NCBI GenBank assembly: GCA_009602725.1
Contig: WELB01000149.1
Span: 147,501 to 185,102 of the forward strand
Direction: 5' to 3'
Origin: Spirogloea muscicola
Lineage: Eukaryota > Streptophyta > Zygnematophyceae > Spirogloeales > Spirogloeaceae
Length of the DNA: 37,602 nt
A program made the translations under genes and the position numbers. Below, one piece after another: positions 3,018 to 37,602 of this stretch; the stretch's first letter is position 1; every line of letters starts with the position of its first letter. Below the pieces are notes generated by a model. That model was not told the origin of the DNA. It made no database searches and worked only from the letters and a program-made list of their open reading frames with translations.

Positions 3018-3761
3018 TCAGTTGACCTGGACATCAATTGTCTTGGGCTGCTCAGGCTCCACCGGCTGCTTCTTGGGCACAGTCACATTGAGCACGCCGT
3101 TCTCGCATGTCGCTGACACCTTCTCTGAGTCTGCATCCTCTGGTAAGCGGAAGCGGCGCATGAATTTGCCAGTGCTGCGCTCAAACCTGCATCAAGAAAC
3201 GCAAGACTGTAAGAGACCAGACAACTTCTGGAGGAGCTTAAGATCTGCAGAGAATCTCGGTTTGCTGTGATTTCTTGTGTGCTGAGTCTGATGTAATGGC
3301 ATAGTGATGTGAACAGAAGAACAAGACATAAGTGACTTGGCATATACAGATTGTTGAGTGCTAATAAGGAGCACCCAGAGCAGATTAGCATATGACAATT
3401 GTGTAGGTAGGCGGAGGAGGCCGCACCTGTGGTACTTGTCAATCTCCTGCTTCTCCTCGCGAGTGCGCTCTCCCGAGATGCTGAGCAGGTTGCCGCCCTC
3501 AATCTGCACCTTCACCTGGTCGCGCTGCAGGCCGGGGAGGTCGGCGATGAAGTCGTACTGGGTCGGCGTCTCCTTGACGTCCACGGCGGTGTTGGCGACG
3601 GCGTGGGTGTCGCGCATGTACGCGGCCATGGGCGGCTCGAACAGGGAGCTGAACTCGTCCGCGGTGCCGAAGAGCGACAGCGCCTGGTTCAGGAGCTGCG
3701 AGTGGGGGTCGCGGTCCCAGACGGACGTCGAGGGCGCCGCTCGGAACGCACGAAGAGCCAT
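3018..3761 (-). CDS. Class I small heat-shock protein (Hsp20)
   Basis: Model: complement(join(3018..3186,3427..3761)), 167 aa. An N-terminal arm of about 55 residues is followed by an alpha-crystallin domain: [20 protein letters not shown], a [14 protein letters not shown] strand, [20 protein letters not shown] across the splice junction, then [12 protein letters not shown] and a short tail. These are hallmarks of plant-type class I sHSPs, ATP-independent chaperones that form oligomers and hold unfolded proteins. There is no clear ER-retention or peroxisomal signal, so the protein is probably cytosolic. The 240-base intron falls in the loop region, with donor GTGCGG and acceptor GATGCAG, and its phases agree. 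I found no convincing heat-shock element in the 200 bases upstream. A 43-base A-tract (minus strand) lies 200 bases upstream. Confidence 0.93.
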
Positions 3762-3956
3762 GGGTGCGGAGCCGGATAGACGATGGCAAGTGGGCTTCAG
3801 GCAGCAGCAGCTGGGCGATGACGAAGCTGCGAAGGACTGGTGGCGGCGGCGGAGCGGCAGAGGCGCTGGCGAAGCTGGGTTTGCTGGGAGGAGGGAGGGA
3901 GGCAGTGTGGGCTCTGAGCTTGCTGGGAGGAAGAGATTGTCTCGGTGATGGAGGGT

Positions 3957-3959
<3 letters not shown>

Positions 3960-4002
<43 letters not shown>
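3960..4002. repeat. Poly(T) tract, poly(A) on the minus strand
   Basis: 43 consecutive T. Read on the minus strand it is an A-tract at the end of a repeat-derived segment (4440 to 4003) and about 200 bases before the Hsp20 start. It could be the A-tail of a minus-strand retroposed sequence or a nucleosome-excluding promoter tract. Confidence 0.9.
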
Positions 4003-4029
4003 CCTCCTCCCCCCTCCTCCCTCCCTCCT

Positions 4030-4260
4030 CCCGAAGCGTCCAGGCGCTTCGCGGGGCTCCACGTCGGATCTGGGGCTCTCTCTCGCCCCGCCACGGCGGC
4101 GCCAGGTAGGCTCCGGAGGCTTCGCGGACCTCCAAGTAGGACCCAGTCGCGCGACAAGCAGGCTCCGGCCCCTTCGCGGAGATCCACGTTGGATCCAGAG
4201 GGCCGACAGGTAGACCCGCGGGCGCCACATCGGAGGGAGGTCCACGCCACGTAGGACGGA
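4030..4260. repeat. GC-rich short repeat cluster
   Basis: The motif CTTCGCGGnnnTCCAnGTnGGAnC occurs at about 4049, 4120 and 4172, with AGGCTCCGG and related blocks between. Spacing is uneven (71 and 52 bases). No gene is evident on either strand; long open frames here are by-products of GC richness and poly(T). Confidence 0.6.
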
Positions 4261-4393
4261 AAGTGCCGACGCGGCCCGCGCTGGAGCTCTCCGGCGGACG
4301 TGGCGCGGACGTGGCGGCCTGCAGCCCGGGCCGGCGGAAGGGAGGAAGGGAAGGAGGGAGGAGGGAGGGAGGAGTGAAATGGCGCGCGGTGCG

Positions 4394-4440
4394 CATGAAA
4401 TGAAGGGGTGGTCCAACTATAAGCCAATACACCGTTCAGG
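4394..4440 (-). repeat. LINE 3' UTR module (CATGAAATGAAAGG type)
   Basis: A roughly 45-base block, CATGAAATGAA.GGGTGG followed by AAGCCAATAC and TTCAGG. Related copies lie at about 14812-14856 (opposite strand), 27234-27280, 34033-34080 and 36012-36050. At 27234 it is next to a LINE C-terminus, so I assign it to the 3' UTR of one LINE subfamily; in LINE sense it reads on the minus strand. Confidence 0.65.
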
Positions 4441-4503
4441 GAAAAGCTAGTGCCAAAGTTGAGGCTTCAAGAGGAGGAGATGGGGGTGGGGGGGAGGGGG
4501 AGG

Positions 4504-6443: not shown

Positions 6444-7159
6444 TCAGAGGCGGGACAGCGCATCCCGGATGGCGGACCGGAAAGCGGCCGCCTGGAAGAG
6501 GAATGACGAGACGTGGCCACCCCGGACCCACCGCACCTCCGCCTTGGGCCAAGCCTGGTGCATTGCCAGCAACGAGCGCGCAGGCACGTAGCCGTCGTCG
6601 CGCGCGCCCACGAAGATAGTCGCCTCCTGGCGGAGCGGCGGCGGAAACCGTGTCACGTCCGTAAGCTCCAGGACGCAGCGCAGGGCGTCCCGCACGGCTG
6701 CATTGCGTCCGGACGCGGCGAGGTCACGCTCGAGCGCCGCCCAGGCAGTCCCGTGGCGCAGCATGCCGTCGAGGAACGCGGGTGCCGCCGAGTGGGGCGC
6801 CAGGAGCGGGATGGTGGCAATGGGCTCCGGGTGCAGCGAGCCGACCATGGCGGCGTGCACGCCGCCCATGGATAGGCCGCAGACGCCTAGCGCGGCGTAG
6901 CCGCCGTCGGTGGCAGCCCAGTGGAGCAGCACGCGGGCCTCGTCGATGGTGGCGCGCCCGAGCAGCAGGAGGTCGGCAACCGCCAGCAGCTTGGCGCCCA
7001 CCTGGCCGGCCGGGCGGCGGGCGCCATAGAAGGGGCTCTCCAGAACCAGCGTTGCGATGTTGTGGCGCAGGAGCGGCAGGCCGAGCGCCAGCCGCCGCCC
7101 GAAGCCGTGGTCGCCGGTGCCGGCCAGGTGGACGACGCAGGCGGCGGCGGCGCCGGCGG
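6444..7159 (-). CDS. ABHD18-type alpha/beta hydrolase (DUF2048), N-terminus missing
   Basis: One minus-strand frame is open from the N at 7160 to TGA at 6444-6446, giving 237 residues. In order it shows CVVHLAGTGDHGF, LVLESPFYGARRP, LLLLGRATIDEAR, the nucleophile elbow GVCGLSMGGVHAA (Ser codon 6870-6872), GSLHPEPIATIPLLAPHS, an acidic segment GARDDGYVP and the His motif RGGHVSSFLF (His codon 6513-6515). This is the plant form of ABHD18. A Ser-Asp-His triad is therefore present, so an esterase or lipase-like enzyme is likely; the substrate is not known from sequence. The family normally has roughly 100 more N-terminal residues. They are absent here because the model ends at an N that probably marks a collapsed gap; the bases beyond (GCTAG on the minus strand) could instead be an intron acceptor. 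No intron is seen in the visible part. Confidence 0.88.
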
Positions 7160-7160
7160 N
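7160..7160. other. Single N, likely collapsed assembly gap
   Basis: The ABHD18 frame stops being meaningful exactly here, and sequence composition changes from GC-rich coding to mixed non-coding. Confidence 0.6.
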
Positions 7161-9904: not shown

Positions 9905-10400
9905 GTTAGAGAGGGAAAGTGTGTATTAAGTGATGGAGGGCCTGTGTGGCCAAGTACAAAGGCAAGCACATTGACAGATGTACATCACCTGCTGCTAAGC
10001 TGACCGGCTCAGTAACCACGAGTCAGCACATAGAGGTCGCTAACTGATGCCCGCATACCGGACGGCAATCAACAAGCTCTTGTGCCACCAACGAAGGCTC
10101 GACCAGCTTTGTGATGCAACGCATGAGCCTGAGCTCGCTGCAGACATGCTGACACTCGATGTCGTAGAAATGACAATGAGTAGCCTGCCAGCGTGCCCAT
10201 CTGTGCTGGAAGCATATCCTCAAGTCGAGCATATCCCAGACTTGCAGATTTCACAAGTCGGGTATGGAAGCGGGGACCCATGCAGCCGAAAGTGTCAATT
10301 ACGGCTGGTAGGAGGTTATCACTGCGGAGGTAGTCAGAGTAGTGTAGGAGCCTTCCTCTGCTCTGCACCACCCACTGCGTGGCCAGCAATATGAGTCGAT
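9905..10400 (-). mobile_element. LINE 3' end, copy B (same subfamily as 472-835)
   Basis: Matches copy A through the 3' UTR (GTGTGTATTAAG, TGTGGCCAAGTACAAAGGCA) and coding end (LYVLTRGY-stop with stop at 10009-10011). It extends further upstream into DNLLPAVIDTFGCMGPRF, which aligns with EFFPLAIDTHGALGARW in the copy at 15737. The frame is broken at least once between the two conserved parts, so it is inactive. Confidence 0.75.
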
Positions 10401-10925
<525 letters not shown>

Positions 10926-15497: not shown

Positions 15498-15679
15498 CTT
15501 TGTAGCTCAGCATCTCTGATCTGCGGCTGCTTAGCAGGGGTTACTGAGTGTCTCGTAGCAGCTTTGTTTCTGTTACTTAGCGCTTCCCCTGGCCCCCTTC
15601 TCGTACTCTGTTCATTCTTTTTCGGGCTGGTTGTTCCAGCCCCTATTCTCAATGGGCGAGCACTTTCTTCTTTGTAGCT
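15498..15679 (+). mobile_element. 162-bp LINE 3'-end insertion with 10-bp target-site duplication
   Basis: Bases 15508-15669 are, by eye, identical to 16150-16311 and are flanked by the perfect direct repeat CTTTGTAGCT (15498-15507 and 15670-15679). The sequence without the insert, CCCCTTTGTAGCTGCTCACC, is present in reverse complement near 36170-36190. The insert begins in the last codons of the LINE ORF (ISDLRLLSRGY-stop) and ends GGGCGAGCACTTTCTT, which defines the element's 3' terminus. Confidence 0.85.
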
Positions 15680-15736
15680 GCTCACCGCTCTTAGGCCCCT
15701 CTGAACCTTTGTGCATTCTTTTTGGGCTGGCTTTTC

Positions 15737-16311
15737 GGCGGGCCACGTCTTCTCCTGGACGTGGTGACTACTGATGCCTATGACCGCTCACACCCAGCCA
15801 AATGTGCCACCACGGCTGGGTATGCGGTCGCCTGCGCTGCTCGGGCCAAAGAGCTGAAATACGCGGATCATCCGCGGGAAGACGAGTTCTTCCCGTTGGC
15901 CATCGACACACATGGGGCGCTGGGCGCTCGGTGGCTCGAGCTGCTCACCCAGCTCGCCCGCCACACCATCGCCCGGCGCTTCCATGGGGAGCCGGTTGAC
16001 TTCCCTGCAGCCGGGTCGCTGGCGCAAGTGTATCGAATGCGCCTGGCCGTCTCGCTGCAGAGGTCCATGGCCCGGGCGCTGCACCTTCGTGCCGGCAGAG
16101 CCCTCGCTGCTGCCTCTGGCTCTGGCCAGGGGACCCACTTCCAGGAGCCCAGCATCTCTGATCTGCGGCTGCTTAGCAGGGGTTACTGAGTGTCTCGTAG
16201 CAGCTTTGTTTCTGTTACTTAGCGCTTCCCCTGGCCCCCTTCTCGTACTCTGTTCATTCTTTTTCGGGCTGGTTGTTCCAGCCCCTATTCTCAATGGGCG
16301 AGCACTTTCTT
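15737..16311 (+). pseudogene. LINE C-terminal domain and 3' UTR
   Basis: Open from 15737 to TGA at 16187-16189. It encodes LLLDVVTTDAYDRSH, KYADHPREDEFFPLAIDTHG, GARWLELLTQLARHTIARRF, SLAQVYRMRLAVSLQRSMAR, HLRAGRALAAASG and ISDLRLLSRGY-stop. The arrangement RxDLV...DVVTTD...K.AKYADH is compatible with a PD-(D/E)XK nuclease fold like those of site-specific LINEs; that assignment is inference. The 3' UTR continues to 16311, where the copied 3' end stops. Confidence 0.75.
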
Positions 16312-17431: not shown

Positions 17432-20400
17432 ATGGCCGGATGGCCGATGGCGCCGCTCGTGGGTGCGGCGGCCCTCCTGGCGGTCCTGCTGGCGCAGGCC
17501 GCCGCGGCGCCCCAGCAGGCGGGCGACGTCTTCGCCGCGCCGTGCCCATTTCAGCCCGACCCGCCTCCAGGAGGTGCCGCCCGCCTGCTGCCGGAGGCCC
17601 GCAGAGTCCCCTCTCCGCACTGCAATCTGTCTTTTGTGTGTGTGTGTGTGTGTTTGTGTTTGTGCTTGTGCTTGTGCTTGTGCTTGTGCTTGTGCTTGTG
17701 CTTGTTTCTCAAGTCTGTGTTTGTGTTGGCTGCTGCTGTGGACTGTCGAGAGGACTGCATGCTTCTGAAGTGCTAGCTCAGCTCAAGCTCAAGTCCACCG
17801 TCATTGGGTATGGGACTCAAGGAATCAATCTAGGGATGGACATGCCACATTGTGCCATGAGCGCGTCCTCACTGCCTCCAGTCCTTGTCCTCCCCGCTGC
17901 TCGCTCGGCTGCAGGCTTCTTGAGGTGGAGCAGCGCCGCGACATGGGGCGGCGACGGCGTGCCCGGCGTGGGGCCCCGTGCCGGAGGCAACGCCACCATC
18001 CCGTGCGGCAAGGCCATCCTCCTCGACGTCCCTGCTGTCAGCCTCACGCTGCTCCTCATCCAAGGCTTCCTCAAGTGCGCCCCAAACCCCGCCCCATGTC
18101 TCACCTCCCTCATGCTGCAACTCTTGTTGCGCACGTCCCTCGTCACTGCTGACCTCTGGCCGCACCCCACGCCGCCTCCTCGCGTTCCCACCGCAGGTTC
18201 TTGGACAGCCCCTCGCTACCCGTCATCGCTCTCAACTCGAGCTACATCATCGTCCAGGGCCAGCTGACCATTGGCACGCCGACGGCGCACTTCAAGAGCA
18301 ACGCACGCATCACGCTCGTGCCCAACCCTGCCGGCCCCATCCAGTACCTCTTCTCCAGCGCGGCGCCCGCAGATGCCGCCAACCCTCGGATGCTTGGCTA
18401 CCAGGTCCTTGCTGTGGTATGCACAGCAGCCGCCCCTCTCTCCCAGTCAAGAACCATTCATGTATACTGCCTCTCTCCTTGTACCCTTTCCTCAGTCATT
18501 CTACATCATGCTTCTGGTATTTACAAGCGCTTCTGAGCCGCAGGTGGGCGGCCGAGTTCACTTGCATGGCATGCCCGCGGGCGCCACCACGGCGACCTTC
18601 ACGCGCCTGGCAGCCTCAGCGGCGCCAGGCGACAAACAGGTCGTGGTTCGGGCTAATGCATCTGGCTGGCCAGTGGGCGGCCAGGTCGTCGTGGCATCGA
18701 CGGACTACGACTACAAGCAGGCCGAGGTCGCAGTCATCACAGCAGGCAGGAACTCGTAGTCCCAAACTTCTCTGTCCTCCATCGTGCTCTCACCCTCCAT
18801 CACGGAAGGAGCTGACAGAGTACCCCTGCTTTCCTGCCATCGACAGTCCAGAGCAACGCCAGTGGTGGCAGCGTACTGGCCCTTGACCGGCCGCTCGCCT
18901 ACATGCACTGGGGCGGTGCACTGCTGCCTGATGGTGCCGGCGGCAATCTGGACCAGGGCGCCGAGGTTGCGCTTCTGAAGCGAAACATCCTCATCACCGC
19001 GCCGCCCTCCGACAACTTCGTGGGTAAGCGAGTGTACGGTCCCACTACCTAAAGTCTCTTACATCTCCGCATGCGCACTGCAACAAGTGTGAGCTATTCC
19101 CTTGGCTAAGACATGAAGCACGTCTCACCCAACCAGGGATGCCTCTGCTCCGGCCTGACATGCCTGCCAGAGACTGCCCCCCATGTCACAGGCGGCCACT
19201 TCATGGTCTTCTTCACAACCGTGGCGCAGTACATTGACGGAGTGGAGTTCACAAACATGGGGCAGCAGGGCACGCTGGGCCGCTATCCGATTCACGTTCA
19301 TATGTGCGGCAACCAGGCTGGCGGCACCACTGTTACTCGCAACAGCGTCCACCAAAGCTACCAGGTGTGCGGTGTAGGACGATGAAAAGGGGCAATGTAG
19401 TACAAGATAGACGGAGTAGGGAAGGCAGAGAGAGGAGGGGCATGTCCTGTTTGGCAGCACGATGTTCTCACCCGAAACCCCTCCCTCCTGCGCAGCGGTG
19501 CGTGGTGATCCATGGGACGGCAAATGTGACTGTTTCAGACAATGTGGCATATGACACGGCGGGGCACTGCTACATCACCGAGGAGGGTGGTGAGACGGGC
19601 AATGCCTTTCTGCGCAACCTGGGGCTGGCAACGCGCGCCGTTGCAACACTGATCCCCAATGAGTCGCCGCCCGGCCCGTCGACTGAGACCGATGACCAGC
19701 CAGCCACGTTCTGGATGAGCAACCCCAACAATGTCGTCGTTGGGAACTTCGCTGGTGGCGGTGACAACACGGGGTGCGTCATCTGTTCTCCTCCCTCCTC
19801 TTCTATCCTCACGCTCTCAAGGGGCACAGCTGGCTAACATTGCCACCACAATCGGTCTCACGGGCGTGCAGCTTCTGGTTTGAGCTGCGGGAGGCGGTGC
19901 GCGGCATCTCGGCTGACCTCCCGGGGAACAGTGCAGTCGTACCCTTCAACGTCCCACTGGGGGCCTTCACTGACAATGTTGCACACTCGTATGGGGCTGC
20001 CGGCTTCCGCACATACCCTCACGGCATGCGGCCACGTTTGCCCTCTGGGGTGAGCAAGCACTGTCTTGTGCCAGTCTACATTCATCCATACGATTGCAGA
20101 TGTCAATGGCAGACATGCTTTGGATGTCATATGATTTGAAACGCGTGCTCCTCTCCCGAGGGCTGTGTCCAGTGACTTGACCATAATCATGAGAACATGC
20201 AATGTCTGTTTCTATTCCAGGTTCCGACATCCGCCGTTTTCGCACGCCTGCGAGCTTTCAAGAATGGGTGGATAGGGTACGCAGCAAGCTAGCTGCAAGC
20301 TCGTAATGGCAAAGACCTAATATTGACATACAATGATTAGTTTTGAAGATGAACATGAGGCGCGCAAGAAGCCAGCAGTGTATCTTAATCTTACAAATGA

Positions 20401-23400
20401 TGCACCTTTGCCTTCTCAAATGCTTTTTCCCGTGCAATTGTCGTCACAGGCTACTTATGCACAACAGCGACAGCATCACGGCGACTGACCTAACCTTCTC
20501 CGACAACCCTTGGGGAATCTACCTCAATCAGGACGAGGGCATCACGGTGCAGAGGTCCAGATTCGTTGGCCTCACCGCCAACTATGGCAATCCGGCACAG
20601 TGCTTTCGCACCGACGAATGGGGCCCCTGCGTGTGAGCCCTTGGTCCTACATCCTATGCTCCATTCACATGATAGAAAATTTGACTGAAGTAGAGCTGCA
20701 GCGAGGCAAGAAATACATAAGGATAAGCTTTGGTTCTCTTCTCCCTGCCACAGGCCGGTCACCGGTTGCACATTGCCGGTGTCGCGCGGCACGCCTGCAA
20801 GGTCGTCTATTGGGCAGCACACGATGCCGATCTTCGGCATTGTGTGGGACCAGGGCAACCGCAGCGAGTCTGGTGGCTATCCCAACCTCATCAAGGGGTC
20901 AACGTTCACCAATTACGACCCGACCTGCCGTCCAGCTGCCGCGCTCGGCCTTGCAGGCGCAGCTGACTTCTGGAATGCGGCTCAAAGGTGAGCGTATGCC
21001 TTTTCTTGGACAACTTCGTGCTGGAAACGGTTACAGCTGTAATTACAATCGAACCATCTTTGCCATCTTCCTATATTCAATGTCTGTATTACTTGCTGTG
21101 GCACTATACTATTCGATAGTACGTTGCAACCTGTTGTTGGCCGCTAACTATCCAACTCATGACATTGCAGGGTACAGAGCCTGAGCTTCGTGAACGCGAC
21201 CCCAGTATACATGGTTCCGCGCATTGCAGCGTGGAGCCCAGGAATGTCTGTTGTGGATGGCGGCGAAATCTCACTGCAGTACGCGCTCAGGGACCTGGAC
21301 GGCTGCCTGGTCGGCGCGCCCGGCTACGTTGTTGCGCGCACGCCTGCCATGCTGCCGCCGGCGGCTAAGGGGTGCACGCTGCAGGCTGCATGGAACGCAT
21401 ACAGCTGCCCAAAGCTTTGTTACCGCACGGTCGCCATCCAGTACAATGAGCCTGGCTTTAGCGCCACGATGTTGGGCGCTCGCAAGCACGGCGACTTCAG
21501 CTGGGTGGAGATAACCAGGTTGGCAAGCCACCGCAAGGCCTGGACTGTGGCTGGCCAGTTGTGATGCTTGATACATTTCTCAGCTGATCGCAATGGGCGG
21601 GGTGTACTTGCACAACAGGAGAAGCTTAGTCAACAGACAAATTGCGGACGTGCAGCACACTGCTGTTTGGACCTCACGATCGCCTGACCATCATTGCACA
21701 TTCAAGATGTTAGCCTGTGCTTGACATGCTCTCCATGCATGCAAACGCTTGCCTAAAGACTTTTGCGGTGATCTTGACAGAGTGGAGGATGGCATCATCA
21801 CAGTGCTCGATGGTAATCTCAATGCTGAGTACGTCGCTTACGGAGGGGCGACAAGCACGTCTCGGTACTTCTTTGCCAACCTGCTGACTGGGTACACCTA
21901 CCTCGTCACCTTCAAGTCGAGTGGCAATTTCTACCCTGCAGTAGCCACTGTGAACCTCAAGGACGGAGCAGGCTGCGGTGGCATTGCCAAAATTCGCGTG
22001 GCGCCACCTGACGCTTTTCACCAGTGGACCTTTTCCTCGGCAGACCAGATCGTATACAAGTAAGCGGCCCTTGTCTCAGGTTCTAAGTAGGAAATTTATA
22101 TTGGTCTGTCCAAAGCTTACAGCATGGACCTGCGCTAACAGAACGCTGACTCCTGCAGGCCTTGCACTGGGCTAGTATCAAATATGGCCCCCAAGCTCAC
22201 CACCGTGAGCTATTTCTGCAAGGCTGGGCAGCCAGCGCAGATTGAGATATCTCTTGGACCTTCCATTGTGGACCTTGTGCAACTAAGCCTTGTCGCAGGC
22301 AGCAGCAGTTGCCCACTCTCAAGGTCTAGATCTGCAACCTGCCTTGAGCTGCATGACATTGCAGCATTGATTTCTCAGAGACAGGCTCTTGGCTGGACAC
22401 ATTATTCGCACATAAGCATATGGTGGCCACCTGCCAATTAGTAAAGTGGCTGCAATATTGAGACCACCATAGCTGTGACATGCACCTGGCAAAGTTCATG
22501 TGTGTGTCAAAGGGCGGGGCTGACGAATCATTGAGGCTCTCCCCATGACTTGTCCTATCTATGGCAGCTCTTGTGGCATACTCCCATCAGGATCAGCTGG
22601 CTGGGACTGGAGTGCAGGAATTGTACCTGCCACCTTTGCACCGACGACGGCTACCAAAGTGGGTCAACATGCACTCCAGGCAGGCTTTGGATCTGGGCAG
22701 GGCATCTTTGGTTACGGGAACAACTTTCTGGTTACCACCATCCCCAAAACAACGGCCTCCGTCATCACTTACTACTTTCAGCAAGCCTTCATTTTGACCA
22801 GCGTGGCCTGCTACAGCGGCCTGGATTTAGATATCATTGTGGACGATGGAGTTGTAGTATACCTCAATGGCGACGAGGTGCTGCGGAGCAACATGCCACT
22901 GGGAAAAATACGGCCACTCACTCAGGTGCTTTGGAGTTCTTGGCAGAGAAACTCTGATGTGCATTCAGTGCAATCAATCAGTACCACTCATGTACATGTC
23001 TCGCCTCTGTTGTTTCAGGCTCTGTCTCACCTCCAGCCCATTCGATATCCTAATGTAAACTACACCTCATTCCACATCGACCTTGTGGGATCATTAAGCT
23101 CGTATGCTTTAAGGGAGGGCATAAATCTTATCACTGTGGAAGTCCATGCTGCTTTCAATTACGCATGGGAGATGGCCTTTGACATGCGGATCTCTGCTGT
23201 CAAGCGGTAAAGACCTACACTTCTCTGCAACAGGCCCACACAATTTATTTGTTCTATCTTTCAGCTCAAATGCATATACAAAAGTCTTGGAGGGAGGAGA
23301 CGATTGTATTGCCAACTGAAAACATCTGTAACAGATATCTTCAGAAAATCACCTAAGATCTAAAAATTTCCCTGCCAGGGCCACCTGCGGATTGACATCA

Positions 23401-25715
23401 CAAGCTGCCAAGTGTTTGGATGCCAATGGAAACCCCTTGACCAAGCCATGTTCAAGCCAGTGCCGGTACTGGCATCCAGACATGTGTGAATGGGGCGTAT
23501 TCGGCATGCTCAGTCCATCAGCCATCAGCAGAAATGTACGTACTTAATGACTTCGTATGATATCATGTGTACAGTGTGCCCTGCTGAGCAGCTGCCTCGT
23601 CATGAACCCCTAACCTGGTATCCAGTGCAAGCTACTCATCTGTCACTCATTGTCTGCCATTTTCACACAGCTGTGACGGCATCGACAATGATTGCGATGG
23701 TTACGTGGACAATGGGCCTGGCAACCTGAACTGCGGCGCAGGGCAGGGCTGCTTTGCTGGCAAGTGCCAACCGATTGCCGACTACGTAAGAGCAATATCG
23801 GTTGTCCCAGCCGGATCGGCTGGCTGGTCTTACTACGACCTTGGGGGAGATGCCACTACAGCCTTTCCCCAGTGGAAAGTGGGGTGAGTCAAATCCGTCC
23901 CCTCCAATCCATTGGCCTAGTTAGCCAACTTGTAGTCCATTTGCAGGATCGAATACTTGCGAGACCTTATAAAGGAGCTTCTTGTGTAGTTTCGCATTTA
24001 ACTACTTGTGCTATACTGCATACAAGCTGACAATGTGCTGTGGACGTTGCCTCCTACTGTTCTTCAGCCAAGGCATTACAAGTTGGAAAACAGGCACTGC
24101 TCCTCTGGGCTATGACACGTACAATGCAAGCGACATCTTTCAGACCCAAATTGGGAGCATTCAGGGGAAGTTCATCACTTCCTACTTTGTCAAGGCCTTC
24201 ACGCTCACAGCAACAGAGCTTCCTATGATTGAGAGCATGAGTAAGCCTCTATGCTGACCCTTTCATACTAGCAGTCCAGCAACACCACCCTTTTCCCTTC
24301 CTTTGACTGCCTTGCATGCTCATCACCATCATTTTAATACTCATATGCAAATGAACTTGGTGATCACGTGGCAGTGGCTGCCGTGAGGAGGGACGATGGA
24401 GCAGTTATGTTCATCAATGGGCAAGAGGTCTTCCGTACCAACATGCCAAAGGGCTTAATCACTTTTCAGACCTTTGCGGCATCGATAACCTGGAATTCTG
24501 ACTTGAAGACCACCTACTATCCATGCGATACCTGTGGCCCAAGCACAGCATCCCTTCTCAAGGTGAGCACTTATACGGCGCTCTCCATGCCAGGCAAGTG
24601 TCATATATGAGCCTTGCACATATATAAGAGACATCCTTGTTGAGCTAAAAGGAACATAGTATGGCTAAGTGCGACCTACCCCTTATGCCGTGCGCAGGCT
24701 GGCCTCAATTACATTGCGGTAGAGCTGCACCAGAACTATTTGTGGTCTGGAGATGCTGCAATGGATTTGGTGCTCTCAAAGTACCTCTTTGGTTCCTGCC
24801 AAACGCTACCGGGTGCTCCAAAAGCTTGCATTCTGGCAGCTCCATCGAAGATTTTGCTACCTGTGAGTACCTTTCTCTTTCAACCATTATCTGCTGGTAC
24901 TTTAGCACGCCAAAGCTGACACAAAAGCGTTACTCTCCTGTTGCCTGCACTGCTTGACATTCTTACTTCATCACAGGCCTGATAATCTCAAGTCCAAACT
25001 TCCCTGCACATGCAGAGCCAGTCTACATGGAGGTACTTAGATGGAGGTGCCGTCGCGCCTGCCACATGGAGTACGGCTACCTTTGATGATAGCAATTGGA
25101 AGACAGGTCAGCTCGTTAGCTTCTGTCTCACTTCTGCGCCTCAACTTGCACTGCAATGCTGCACAGGACCATTCATATGAATTACAAGTTAGCTTGCCCT
25201 GGCATTCATTTTCTACCTTGCCAGGTCGTCCACCGCCCACGTCCTTACCTCATGCCTCTGATGACTGCTTTAGCTGCTTATGAGCAGGCTCCGGCATGTT
25301 TGGCTTTGGCTCAAATGGTGGAATACAAACAAAAGTCTCATTTGGAGCCGATGATGCCAACAAGGCATTGACCTACTATTTTCGGACCACTGTAACAGCT
25401 GCTGATCTGGCATGCTTCTTCGAGCTGACTGCCAGCATCATCGTCAATGATGGTGCCGTGGTATACGTGAACGGCAATGAGGTATTCCGCCTCAACATGC
25501 CAGACACACCCGTCACATCAGCGACACAGGCGAGCTTCTGGGGCAGCTGGTCATGGCAGGACACAGTTTTGACACCCGGTACGTGGGTCAAGAATGGTGC
25601 CAATGTCGTCGCAGTAGAGGCGCACCTCTTCTTCCCAAAGAAGACCGACTTCTTCTTTGACATGGAATTGACTGGCCAACGGGAAGGTGCGAACTGCCTT
25701 CCTCGGCGAACTTGA
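17432..25715 (+). CDS. Secreted CEMIP/TMEM2-like G8 and beta-helix protein with C-terminal beta-sandwich repeats
   Basis: Model, about 1,580 aa: join(17432..17573,17915..18074,18197..18404,18544..18745,18847..19023,19192..19364,19496..19773,19872..20049,20221..20276,20450..20632,20754..20987,21171..21518,21781..22059,22159..22323,22568..22925,23019..23206,23379..23535,23671..23883,24068..24240,24375..24562,24698..24862,25016..25106,25288..25715). A signal peptide (residues 1-27) precedes a G8 domain (about 50-165: WSSAATWGGDGVPGVG, NSSYIIVQGQLTIGT). Next are STDYDYKQAE, LDRPLAYMHWGG and a beta-helix core with LGRYPIHVHMCGN, RCVVIHGTANVTVSDNVAYD and TAGHCYITEEGG. These are family motifs of CEMIP and TMEM2, the animal extracellular hyaluronan-degrading proteins. 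The C-terminal third has three copies of a beta-sandwich domain (DDGxVVYxNGxEV, then VAVExH) and one MopE-like CDGIDNDCDGYVDN. There is no membrane anchor, so the protein is probably extracellular or in the cell wall; the substrate is unknown. Exon 17/18 phases disagree with the canonical sites used. Intron 4 appears to be GC-AG. Confidence 0.85.
17637..17706 (+). repeat. (TG)n/(TGTGCT)n microsatellite in intron 1
   Basis: TG dinucleotides grade into seven or so TGTGCT hexamers. It lies entirely inside intron 1 of the CEMIP-like gene. Confidence 0.9.
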
Positions 25716-27908: not shown

Positions 27909-28993
27909 ATGTCGCCGCTTTCCCAATTGCGGCGACCCAGCAGCCGATGCGTTGCAGCGATGGGCCTCCTCACACTTCTCGTCCTCGTCGTGGCCTTGGC
28001 CGGCGTTGGCCGGCGGGCGTCTGCAGAGGTGGCCCTGCTCGTGAGGGCGACCCAGCTGCGCAGCCAGATCGCATCTATGTCGGCGGGCAGCCTTGCGCAG
28101 ACCGCTGAAGAGAAGAGGCCCGATGCGGAGCTTGGTGAGGACGTCTTGGAGCTTCGCATGCGGTGTAGCTCAGAGCTAGCAGATTGTCGATGGTGCTGTG
28201 CCCGGCTCCGTCATTCTTGAAGGAGTCGTCCTAGCATTTGCTGCACCAAGTATGTTCTTGAGTTGATATCAGATTTAGCAGTTATGGACAATCAAGGTGC
28301 ACTGCCAGCAGGCCCTTCGCATCGGCTGCTCTATCTGCATTGACTGACGACAGTGATCACCTTATGTGGCACTTGTTGTGCTCCGCAACGGAGCTGCTCC
28401 AAGCCCGCAGCTTGCATGCAGTCTTGGGGTCAGAGTCGGCGCACTTGGAGCAAGACACCCCACACAGAAGCCTGGTGATAGCCAAGAGCTGGCATGCGGC
28501 AGGATCCAGGAGAGCCCTCAGCGACACGTTCGCAGCCTCTGCCCCTCGCCATCGCCTCGAAGTCGTGGTGGCTCCAGAGGCGGCAGCTGCACGGAAAGAT
28601 CATAATGGGCTCGACCACATGCTGCCACCGCCGCCGCCCTCAGCCCCAGTTTCTGCAGCTTCGCCTACCTTGAGACACAGTAGTCTCGGACACAATACCG
28701 CCCACATGGCATCTGCAAGGCAGCACCATGGCCACAAAGTCAAGGCTCCTCCTCCTCCTGCTCCTGCTCCTGCTCCTGTCCCTCGAGCGAATCGCCTCAA
28801 AGTCGTGGTGGCTCCAGAGGCGGCAGCTGCACGGAAAGATCATAATGGGCTCGACCACATGCTGCCACCGCCGCCGCCCTCAGCCCCAGTTCCTGCAGCT
28901 TCGCCTACCTTGAGACACCGTAGTCTCGGACACAATACCCCCCACATGGCATCTGCAAGGCAGCACCATGGCCACAAAGTCAAGGCTCCTCCT

Positions 28994-29025
<32 letters not shown>

Positions 29026-29239
29026 CCCTCGAGCGAATCGCCTCAAAGTCGTGGTGGCTCCAGAGGCGGCAGCTGCACGGACAGATCATAATGGGCTCGA
29101 CCACATGCTGCCACCGCTGCCGCCCTCAGCCCCAGTTCCTGCAGCTTCGCCTACCTTGAGACACCGTAGTCTCGGACACAATACCGCCCACATGGCATCT
29201 GCAAGGCAGCACCATGGCCACAAAGTCAAGGCTCCTCCT

Positions 29240-29277
<38 letters not shown>

Positions 29278-29926
29278 CCCTCAAGCGAATGTAAATTTAA
29301 ACGCGAGCTCGGCCGCCACAGTGAGGGCGGCTGAGCTCCTGTGGCTGCTTCAGCAGCTGTCAGCGTCGACATCAGGACCAGTTCAGCAGTCTGCTATCGA
29401 AGCGATCCGATTGCTGCAGCAAAGTGAGCTCTTCAGTATCATATGCAACAATCTTGGAACTTACAAGTGCCAAAGCAACAGCAAGGCACATTTGCAATCT
29501 AGCCTGCTCATCAAGCCTGCTCGTGCCCTTGGCTGCTCCGCAATCTTGATACTTTGCCATCTTTGGCTGCAGTCCCAGGTGTCGTGGATATTCGGTCCAG
29601 CCTGCAGTCCCAGGTCACCACGCTGCTCTATCCAATTCTACAGGTGAGAATGTTGTGACCGCTGAACTGCTTGTCACAGCAGCAAACATTGGCAGCCTCA
29701 TCCTGCAATCTCCGCTCCTGCAGAACCTGCAGTGTGCTGTATGTTTCATTCTGACTTAGCCCAACGGTGTTGAGTAAAGTCCGACATGTTGTTATTGGAT
29801 ATTGACCAGACACCAAGTACACCTCAGGAGCAGGCGGCAAATGTCGTGGACATTTTGTCCAATCTGGGCCGTTATACTGGACGATACCTAGACAACACAA
29901 TCGGACTTGCAAACTTCCAACCTTAG
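27909..29926 (+). CDS. Secreted Ala/Pro-rich protein with three long tandem repeats
   Basis: Not a recognised family. Exon 1 starts at ATG 27909 and encodes a signal sequence (MGLLTLLVLVVALAGVGRRA, cleavage likely near ASA-EV), then a helical ATQLRSQIASMSAGSLAQTA segment to a GTGAGG donor at 28135. The main exon (about 28399-29423) carries three near-identical repeats of 80, 82 and 84 residues: LxVVVAPEAAAARKDHNGLD, HMLPPPPPSAPV, TLRHRSLGHNTAHMASARQH, HGHKVKAPPPPAPAPA. After the repeats come ELLWLLQQLSASTSGPVQQS, a GTGAGC donor at 29424 and an exon at 29573-29643 in the right phase. The gene ends either at TAG 29757-29759 or, via an exon after 29800, at TAG 29924-29926. The link from exon 1 to the repeat exon is unresolved; a short exon near 28181-28249 may lie between. 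Pro/Ala content and secretion suggest a wall or matrix protein (inference). Confidence 0.6.
28553..29290 (+). repeat. Tandem repeat ladder of 240, 246 and 252 bp
   Basis: Units at 28553-28792, 28793-29038 and 29039-29290 are nearly identical. Each unit is longer than the one before by exactly one GCTCCT hexamer (one Ala-Pro pair) in the run before CCTCGAGCGAAT. The length steps keep the reading frame. Confidence 0.95.
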
Positions 29927-35074: not shown

Positions 35075-36155
35075 AGAAGTGGCACTCCTAATGGGGGCAA
35101 GGGCTGCGAAAAGCCAGCCCAAAAAGAATTGACAAAGGTTTGGAGGAGCCTACAGCGATTTAGCAGCTACAAAGGGGCCGGGAGACGCTATGTCAGAACA
35201 GGGGGAGGATGGATCACTCAGTAGGTACGAGTGAGTAGCCTCAGATCCGACAGACTAGCTGCTGGGAATCTATCCGCCTAACGAAAGCCGGAGGTTGCAG
35301 CGAGAGCACGGCCAGCATGCAGATGCAGAGCGTGGGCCATGGACCGCTGGAGGGATACTGACAACTTCATGCGATATACCTGAGCCCACGAGCCAGCTGC
35401 GTTAAAGTCAGCCGGCTCGCCGCGCCTACGGGACTCAGCGCACCGCGCAAGCCTGGCCAGCAGGTCGAGCCACTGGGACCCAAGAGCCCCGTGCACGTCC
35501 ACAGCCAGGGGGACGAATTCATCTGTATCCGGGTGATCGGCGTGCTTGGCCGCCTTGCTGCGAGCCGCCTTCGCCGCAGCGTGGCCAGCCCGCGAGGCAG
35601 AGAGCCCCGGGTTGGAGCGGTCGACCAAATCAGTGGTGATCACGTTGGCGATGATGCGCGCGCCGCCGCCCGGCGTTGACGCTACCAGGTCGACACGGCG
35701 CGTGAAGGAAAGGGCTCGCCCATTGTGCAGCCATCGCGCGACCGGCACGCAGAGTCAAGACGCGTGTCGGTGACCGCTGTAGCGAGACCCAACAGGCGCG
35801 TGCGATACACCTGAGCGAGAGAGCTTGCTGCATTGAAGTCAGCCAGCAGGAGAAGTGGCACTCCCAATGGGGGCAAGGGCTGCGAAAAGCCAGCCCAAAA
35901 AGAATTGACAAAGGTTCGAAGGGGCCGAAAAAGCGTGGAGCAGCTACAAAGGGGACTGAGCAGGGAGCGAGGGCCGTGAATAGCCAGCCCACAAAAGAAT
36001 TGACAAAAGAGTGCGCATGAAATGAAAGGGTGGCCATATTCAAGCCAAGGAAGGAGGTCCACAGCGAAAGAGCTCGCCCATAGGAAAGAAGAAGTGGCAC
36101 TCCCAATGGGGGCAAGGGCTGCGAAAAGCCAGCCCAAAAAGAATTCACAAAGGTT
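35075..36155. repeat. Three copies of a 65-bp LINE 3' UTR unit
   Basis: AGAAGTGGCACTCCnAATGG followed by GGGCAAGGGCTGCGAAAAGC, CAGCCCAAAAAGAATTnACA and AAGGTT occurs at 35075-35140, 35850-35916 and 36089-36155 with only single-base differences. Each copy contains the inverted LINE 3' UTR hairpin motif. Confidence 0.85.
35199..35850 (-). pseudogene. LINE C-terminal domain, two abutting copies
   Basis: Minus strand 35700-35278 is one open frame: DLVASTPGGGARIIANVITT, SRAGHAAAKAARSKAAKHAD, HPDTDEFVPLAVDVHGALGS, QWLDLLARLARCAESRRRGE, SWAQVYRMKLSVSLQRSMAH. The frame then breaks before the SDLRLLTRTY ending (stop 35218-35220). Immediately upstream, 35850-35705 is a second, different copy of the last part (ADFNAASSLAQVYRTRLLGL). 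This is the longest example of the nuclease-like C-terminus in the window. Confidence 0.8.
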
Positions 36156-36210
36156 CAGAGGGGCCTAAGAGCGGTGAGCAGCTACAAAGGGGCCTGAGGA
36201 TGCTATGGTA

Positions 36211-36260
36211 AAACAGGGGGAGGATGGACCACTCAGTAAGTACGAGTGAGGAGCCTCAGA
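36211..36260 (-). mobile_element. 50-bp LINE 3' stub
   Basis: ACAGGGGGAGGATGGACCAC through GAGGAGCCTCAG matches only the last 50 bases of the copies at 15180 and 35202, then stops. This is an extreme 5' truncation. Confidence 0.7.
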
Positions 36261-36449
36261 GGAAAGAGGGGCTGGCAAAGCCAGCACAAAAAGAATGGAC
36301 AATGTCCAAAGCCAAAGAAAGAGGTGCCGAAAAAGAAGAAGAAGAGGTGCCGAAAAGAAAGGGCTCGCCCATAGAGGAAAAGGACTACACTACCAAGCTC
36401 GACTCCGCTCATTATTTTTTGGGCTGGCTGTTCCAGCCCCTATCCTCAA

Positions 36450-37602
36450 TGGACATCAGGGCTGACAAGTGCTGTGCCTGGTCCCCGGCAGGTCCCCTGC
36501 CAGCCCACCTGGGCCTGCCCGTGGGCTGCCAGACACCGGCCGAGGGCCTCACTCTCCTCGGCGTCCCCCTGGGCGCACCTGCCTTCGTGTCGGAGCAGCT
36601 GCAGGGGCGGCTGCAGGACCACCTCCGGCCGGCGGGCCGCCTGCACACGCTGAACGACATGCAGCTGGCAACCGCCATGCTGACCCGGTGCATCGCGCAG
36701 CGGCCCCACTACCTGGCCCGCACCGTCCTTCCCTCACCGGGGTGACGGCAGCGTATGAGGCCTTCGACACCGGCATCATGGCGGCCGCAGCCTCCCTCGT
36801 GCAGCACCCGGCGTTCCTCACCACCCAAGCTGCGCAGCTGCAGGCCAGCCTGCCGATCAGTCGTGGCGGCTTGGGATGCCGCTCAGTTGCCCGCGTCTGT
36901 GAGGCGGCCTTCCTGGGAAGCTGGGCGCAGGTGGCCGCCCCCATGTGTCAGCGGTTCCTCGTGCACGGACAACGCGCCCTGGAGCGGGCGGCAGCCGATG
37001 TGGAGACAGGCCAACTCCCCTTCCAAGTCGCCCTCCGCACTGCCCGCGACAGGCTCCTGCAGGTCCACCCCAACATGTCCGAGCAGACTGTTCCTTTCCG
37101 GCACCTCGCCCACACTCCAGACCTGCGGGCTCAGGCACGCTTCACGGCGTTGGTCGAGAAGGCGGCCTCCGACCAGGCGGTGGAGCTTCTCCCTCCGTCT
37201 GACGTTCGCGGGCGTGCTCGGCTTCTCTCCGCCTCTTCCCCTGGGGCGGCGGCGTGGCTCCAAGCGCTCCCACTCTATGCCGCACTTACCATGCCCGACG
37301 AGGTCTACCGGACGGCGGTGCATCGGCTCTTGGGGCTCCTCCCTCCCTGCCTTACAGGTGTCACACAGTGCGAGTGCGGCGCCCGGCACGCCGACCCTGC
37401 GGAGCTGGCCGCGCACATGCTCCGTTGCGCCCACGGAGGCGAGAGGACCGCTTCCCATGATCTTTTGCGCGATGGTATGCAGGGGGTGTTCATAGAGGCG
37501 GGCTTCAAGGTGGCGGTGGAGTGCTCCTCAGTCATGCCCATCCTGCGGGGCGAGGACGGCCGGTCGCACACCCGGCGCGCCGACCTGGTCGCTATCCCGC
37601 CC
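36450..37602 (+). pseudogene. LINE protein: end of reverse transcriptase, zinc knuckle and start of nuclease-like domain
   Basis: The first frame (36450-36745) reads KCCAWSPAGPLP, GLTLLGVPLGAPAFVSEQLQ and DMQLATAMLTRCIAQRPHYL, the region after the polymerase active site of non-LTR reverse transcriptases. It ends in TGA at 36743. One frame over, 287 codons are open from 36742 to the window edge: AYEAFDTGIM, PISRGGLGCRSV, AAFLGSWAQV, LPFQVALRTARDRLL, ARLLSASSPGAAAWLQALP, CECGARHADPAELAAHMLRC (zinc-knuckle-like C-C-H-C), HGGERTASHDLLRDGM and TRRADLVAIPP, where the nuclease-like domain begins. The catalytic YADD-type motif is missing because the copy starts at a junction with 3' UTR sequence near 36450. 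A one-base change in the G run near 36741 breaks the frame. Confidence 0.85.

Follow-up and report, generated by a model that had tools for sequence, protein, structure and literature searches.

Evidence for 5′-truncated, target-primed insertion of an R2-like LINE within a sibling LINE's 3′ UTR in Spirogloea muscicola

RESULTS

A 162-base insert and its empty paralogue

The window, i.e. the whole 37,602-nucleotide stretch of S. muscicola DNA analysed here, contains at 15508–15669 (plus strand) a segment that is identical to 16150–16311 at 162/162 bases, with the match breaking off immediately on each side. The two copies have the same orientation and are 642 bases apart. The 10-mer CTTTGTAGCT is found directly before (15498–15507) and directly after (15670–15679) the segment, and the flanks, when joined with one CTTTGTAGCT, equal the minus strand of 36122–36217 at 94/96 bases (2 mismatches). 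This minus-strand paralogue has a single copy of the 10-mer and represents the uninterrupted target, or empty site. A preliminary description of this DNA had reported the 162-base identity, the perfect bracketing repeat and an uninterrupted target in reverse complement at about 36170–36190; all three are borne out, the exact place of the target core being 36173–36192, and mismatches of the kind expected from old divergence number zero between the two copies. Two further uninterrupted target cores, CCCCTTTGTAGCTG, occur on the minus strand at 35941–35954 and 35164–35177. From the flank alignment the empty paralogue is a 3′ UTR of a sibling LINE with a restriction-like endonuclease (RLE), termed family B, to which the rest of the interrupted target (15680–15735, plus strand) is also assigned by repeat pairing within the window.

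The insert itself is a 5′-truncated copy of a second LINE family (family A). Its first 40 bases (15508–15547) close an ORF with its TGA and the rest (15548–15669) is 3′ UTR, which includes the hairpin GGGCTGG-loop-CCAGCCC at 15624–15642 (folding z −4.5 for 15606–15669). The 3′ end reads ...CACTTTCTT plus a short CTT tail, and no poly(A) follows it in the window sequence. Because this tail could overlap the target, the CTT of the right-hand repeat copy being equally possible as element tail, the target-site duplication is given as 7–10 bases, depending on whether the CTT is owned by the element or by the target.

The neighbouring segment at 16150–16311 is the 3′ part of a second family A copy (15736–16311, plus strand, 576 bases), which is 5′-truncated within the endonuclease region of the ORF. 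On its left side this copy splits a family B 3′ UTR between GGCTGG and CTTTTCG, and its right flank is the 3′ UTR of a different LINE. No convincing direct repeat was found around it (4 bases in a tight scan; in a loose one 6 bases, set off by a gap of 14), and a rearrangement or target deletion at this place is possible. At the right end of the window a related RLE LINE copy, apparently 5′-truncated, spans the RT thumb to the endonuclease region and runs off the window (36452–37602, plus strand; the left limit is approximate, being set where the 3′ UTR repeat 36402–36452 ends); its segment 37273–37593 is 69–70% identical to family A. Fragments of a more distant LINE family lie on the minus strand at 572–1021 and 10069–10458, the former beside a long GA/CT simple repeat and ending ...SDLYVLTRGY, as does locus L049.

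Other features of the window are of diverse kinds. An open frame at 3192–4466 (minus strand) matches HSP20 (Pfam E 6e-6) and has a long stretch of lysines derived from an A/T homopolymer, and 6444–7160 (minus strand) covers part of a gene for an ABHD18-like alpha/beta hydrolase (Pfam E 2.7e-79). The open frame at 19238–19837 carries a CEMIP beta-helix domain (Pfam E 1e-30) and may share a gene with the frames 22524–23210 and 25284–25715, which are mutually alike by eye; frame 22524–23210 gave no Pfam match. At 28506–29290 a tandem repeat of ∼246 bases is present in three copies within an open frame, its unit being a proline-rich stretch of 82 amino acids. Pfam detected no LINE domain in seven ORFs of the window, so the reverse transcriptase was located in longer copies elsewhere in the genome.

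Genome copies of family A share one 3′ end

At least 40 places in the genome (153 Mb, 471 contigs) match the 162 bases over their full length at 100% identity, 40 of 1280 candidates having been scored. TTTAGGG repeats are in keeping with a green alga or a different lineage that has this telomere repeat. The terminal 20-mer of the element has 1975 exact genome copies, close relatives included, and is followed by C in 1759 of them; within the collected loci, which are biased towards family A, 52 of its 59 occurrences belong to family A and 7 to relatives or short copies. For comparison of junctions, a set of 42 copies (40 genome loci and the two window copies) was assembled; these were chosen for containing the 162 bases, so that shorter copies are absent. 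The 3′ end GGGCGAGCACTTTCTT is common to 42/42 copies, the next base is C in 39/42, and CTT follows in 21/42. The right flanks vary: only 2 of 861 pairs share at least 8 bases beyond the terminus, one consisting of the window copy and L028, which have the same target, and the other of two CTT tails. Copies running past the proposed terminus without a duplication, which according to the preliminary description would have spoken against its reading, were not observed. Its fixed 3′ terminus without long poly(A) stands in the sense that the end is common to the whole set, although a short CTT tail has to be added to it and the duplication becomes 7–10 bases rather than a settled 10.

The 5′ ends differ from copy to copy. 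In 40/42 copies the element is cut at 162 to 1534 bases (L036, for example, is 355 bases long) and the other two are long copies; the ungapped walk that sets the left limit shortens L009+ (504 bases when gapped) and L023 (203 bases when gapped). A fixed 3′ end combined with variable 5′ ends is the pattern of 5′-truncated LINE copies. Identity among the copies upstream is 98.8–100% in the best pairwise matches displayed. The neighbouring copy had been described as the identical source of the insert, a claim that fails, for it is itself a 576-base truncated copy without reverse transcriptase, and with at least 40 other places equally identical over the 162 bases it cannot be named the source.

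Target-site duplications and 3′ junctions

Target-site duplications could be tested in 33/42 copies, 7 being excluded for N beside the left end and the 2 long copies for a left end outside the collected stretch. In a tight scan (offset −4 to +9), direct repeats of at least 6 bases are found in 22/33 copies (control 14%) and of at least 7 bases in 19/33 (control 6%). A loose scan allowing a tail of up to ∼18 bases raises these to 26/33 and 21/33, compared with ∼21% and ∼10% of mismatched left–right pairs, respectively. Repeats of at least 6 bases are absent from 11/33 testable copies in the tight scan, including the neighbouring 576-base copy with its 4 bases, and from 7/33 in the loose scan; among the 11, L009+ and L023 show repeats of 9 and 7 bases once the left limit allows gaps.

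Of the 23 copies (41 scanned) in which a duplication of at least 6 bases was placed, 17 have a target starting with C and 12 one starting with CTT, whereas CTT starts make up 2.0% of a genome sample. In some copies extra bases stand between TTTCTT and the duplication, namely CTTCTT (L034), CTT (L001), CT (one L009 copy), C (L026) and TTC (L008), and in other copies the duplication and the CTT of the element itself overlap. As judged from these junction sequences, the simplest reading would be that an RNA ending in CUU repeats pairs with the AAG end of a nicked target, such that the CTT of a junction may be assigned to either.

The full-length element encodes a reverse transcriptase and an R2-like endonuclease

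At C20:1130000–1137620 the ORF from C20:1132099 runs uninterrupted through 1299 codons, counted from the first ATG. In L016, a second long copy, the final 683 codons are likewise open, these being all that lie within the collected locus. The 1299-aa product contains an RVT_1 domain (Pfam E 7.9e-16) and a CCHC-like knuckle with the spacing CX1CX12HX3C, preceded in the N-terminal part by two zinc-finger-like motifs seen by eye, one of which is a sub-threshold Pfam match (E 0.086). Its C-terminal KELKY fits the KX2KY motif that PMC5678591 describes for the restriction-like endonucleases of LINEs. No APE endonuclease domain is found in this ORF by Pfam at E up to 1. The fold predicted for the last 260 residues from nine sequences has a mean pLDDT of 55.6, with low confidence over much of its length, and its helix–strand order α-β-β-β-α-β agrees with that given in the same source. 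When this model was compared with the PDB by Foldseek, the top seven matches were R2 proteins (E 3.7e-5 to 1.3e-3, query TM-score 0.41–0.56); a direct sequence search of the PDB matched R2 weakly (E 0.05). The joint presence of a reverse transcriptase and an R2-like restriction-like endonuclease in one ORF makes family A an RLE LINE, as judged by domain order and predicted fold.

To the 5′ side, the 5′ part of the element was used as query, and 40 of the 2776 candidates were scored. At least 11 matches of ∼100% and one of 98% have starts that fall within 8 bases of one another, at query positions 358–365, i.e. 86–93 bases upstream of the ATG. Two further matches continue past this start and share the same flank. 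From the clustering of these starts before the ATG, the full length of family A is put at an estimated ∼4.1 kb; its 5′ UTR is short and its 3′ UTR measures 122 bases. The segment C338:12405–14204 equals C20:1131100–1132899, a stretch that takes in the 5′ flank of a full-length element together with its 5′ part, and is either a duplicated place or a second haplotype in the assembly.

Family A is likely to be young, because many copies are identical and because 11 long copies are ∼100% identical over 887–894 bases of the 5′ part. Recent activity had been proposed earlier from the identity of the insert to its neighbour, which is a weak argument; the activity itself is likely and finds its better evidence in these genome-wide comparisons.

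Structure of the 3′ UTR

The hairpin GGGCTGG-loop-CCAGCCC is nearly invariant across 29 distinct relatives picked by hand, and for that reason gains no support from covariation. In LINEs of the stringent type the reverse transcriptase recognizes a 3′ stem–loop, according to PMC5135761. Also considered was a long outer helix, whose folding in family A is good. In the 29 relatives 83.8% of its cells pair and 0/17 pairs are changed on both sides, figures to be read in the light of how the relatives were selected from 40, with attention to the left part, a choice that works in favour of the outer helix. It was dropped as evidence, since it shows no covariation and a shuffled control was equally good.

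Origin of the insert

Taken together, the data make it very probable that the 162 bases are a 5′-truncated copy of a young, abundant R2-like RLE LINE that entered a sibling LINE, in its 3′ UTR, by target-primed reverse transcription. The single 3′ end, the variable 5′ ends, the duplications and the empty paralogue all bear out the 5′-truncated, target-primed integration that had been proposed from the window. Two identical copies in the same orientation at a distance of 642 bases might also arise by local duplication or gene conversion of the neighbour at 16150, a reading that we regard as very unlikely, as the identity ends exactly at the family 3′ end, a target duplication brackets the copy, the joined flanks equal the empty paralogue at 94/96 bases and the same 162 bases recur at no fewer than 40 other places. 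Shortness, many identical copies and direct repeats would suit a non-autonomous SINE or MITE of a fixed length of 162 bases, which is more improbable still and is contradicted by the length distribution (5′ ends vary, with 36–809 bases at a shared insertion site and 162–1534 bases in 40/42 of the copies chosen for the 162 bases), by longer copies that extend into the RT–endonuclease ORF and by 162-base ends that are not inverted repeats.

For the LINE insertion, a course of events can be proposed in which the endonuclease would nick the opposite strand of the target immediately before CTT. The resulting primer would end in AAG-3′ and could pair with CUU at the 3′ end of the element RNA. Synthesis of cDNA would mostly stop early, giving 5′ truncation, and a second-strand cut ∼7–13 bases away would generate the target-site duplication. 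A preference for CTT and for the sibling 3′ UTR could stem from endonuclease specificity, annealing specificity or both.

Repeated use of one site in the sibling LINE

The junction in which GGGCGAGCACTTTCTT is followed directly by CTTTGTAGCT has 10 occurrences in the genome, that of the window included, and all 10 were read; the corresponding empty site, GGCCCCTTTGTAGCTGCTC, has 442 exact occurrences. The element lengths at the shared site are 162, 809, 71, 81, 51, ∼36, 51, 182, 104 and 82 bases, the ∼36-base case being too short for firm assignment to family A. The two 51-base cases have a common 5′ end and are maybe one event that was copied, so that nine distinct lengths are present. The left half of the target is kept in 7/10 junctions and not clearly so in L043, L049 and L050.

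The recurrence at this site may be a by-product of insertion at any CTT in open or repeat-rich DNA, of which the family B 3′ UTR is merely a common kind. This is a real possibility, although we would not count on it. In its favour, the 442 exact empty sites exist, about half of the placed duplications (12/23) simply begin with CTT, and sibling LINEs are plentiful in the genome sample (40/182 segments, 5/10 blocks). Against it, 10 junctions are found where 0.14 would be expected if 1975 insertions hit random CTT sites. In addition, a second CTT site of the same 3′ UTR, chosen by hand for comparison, is filled in 3 cases by count and empty in 1051, so that 10 filled and 442 empty differ from 3 filled and 1051 empty at Fisher p 0.0006, or 0.01 when only the seven two-half junctions are taken. 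A third CTT site in this 3′ UTR is filled in 3 cases.

The sibling 3′ UTR site is thus preferred, yet it accounts for only 10 of up to 1975 insertions, and the family is dispersed rather than strictly site-specific. In the wider surroundings, 21/40 flanks lie within a sibling or own-family LINE as against 40/182 background segments, a difference that a Fisher p of 0.0003 overstates because the background comes from 10 hand-placed blocks with its 40 hits in 5 of them. Within the loci the share of sibling LINE sequence is 21/40 at the junction, 13/40 at 100 bases and 5/39 at 1000 bases. The sibling library was taken from the window with family A included, and the two window copies were left out of the flank count. 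It is conceivable, though less likely than not, that this RLE LINE lineage has evolved a preference for the 3′ UTRs of its sister LINEs through CTT pairing together with endonuclease specificity, whereby young copies would pile up in older ones and genes would be spared.

DISCUSSION

The insertion described here is ordinary in mechanism for a LINE, and the notable addition is that a very young RLE family has repeatedly used a single site in a sister LINE's 3′ UTR. Such a case is of interest for the question of how strict site-specificity loosens into dispersed insertion. Family A constitutes a natural data set in this respect, since very many of its 3′ ends are identical, its long copies are nearly so and its target motif is short and readable, and each of its junctions displays the likely primer sequence together with the stopping point of the cDNA. 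If the proposed preference is true, a mobile element that lands in its sister LINEs would have one means of leaving genes unharmed. R2-type LINEs are also being explored as gene-insertion tools (PMC12222951). Our literature search returned nothing on target-specific LINEs that use transposons as targets and nothing joining RLE non-LTR retrotransposons with Chlamydomonas, which is a statement about that search and not a claim of absence from print.

Among known systems, the Zepp and ZeppL elements, which form nested LINE clusters in green algae, resemble family A in that elements insert into their relatives. Zepp and ZeppL group with L1 LINEs (PMC8226300 and PMC3446292), whereas family A has a reverse transcriptase with an RLE and matches on many contigs. 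The Dualen/RandI elements, described in PMC8226300 as LINEs with two endonucleases in Chlamydomonas and its relatives, have the RLE in common with family A; the family A ORF carries no APE domain by Pfam and is therefore not Dualen/RandI by domain content. The likeness to the animal R2 elements (R2Bm, R2Tg) comprises one ORF with a reverse transcriptase, a CCHC-like knuckle and a restriction-like endonuclease as well as a precise 3′ end. Unlike R2, the family A copies collected here sit in dispersed sites starting with CTT and in sibling LINE sequence, and the knuckle spacing CX1CX12HX3C differs from the CX2-3CX7-8HX4C given for RLE LINEs in PMC5678591. Finally, the domain order of family A is that of Utopia, of the Utopia/NeSL kind, as presented in PMC4640811, where the families of Utopia are described as varying in the strength of their target specificity.
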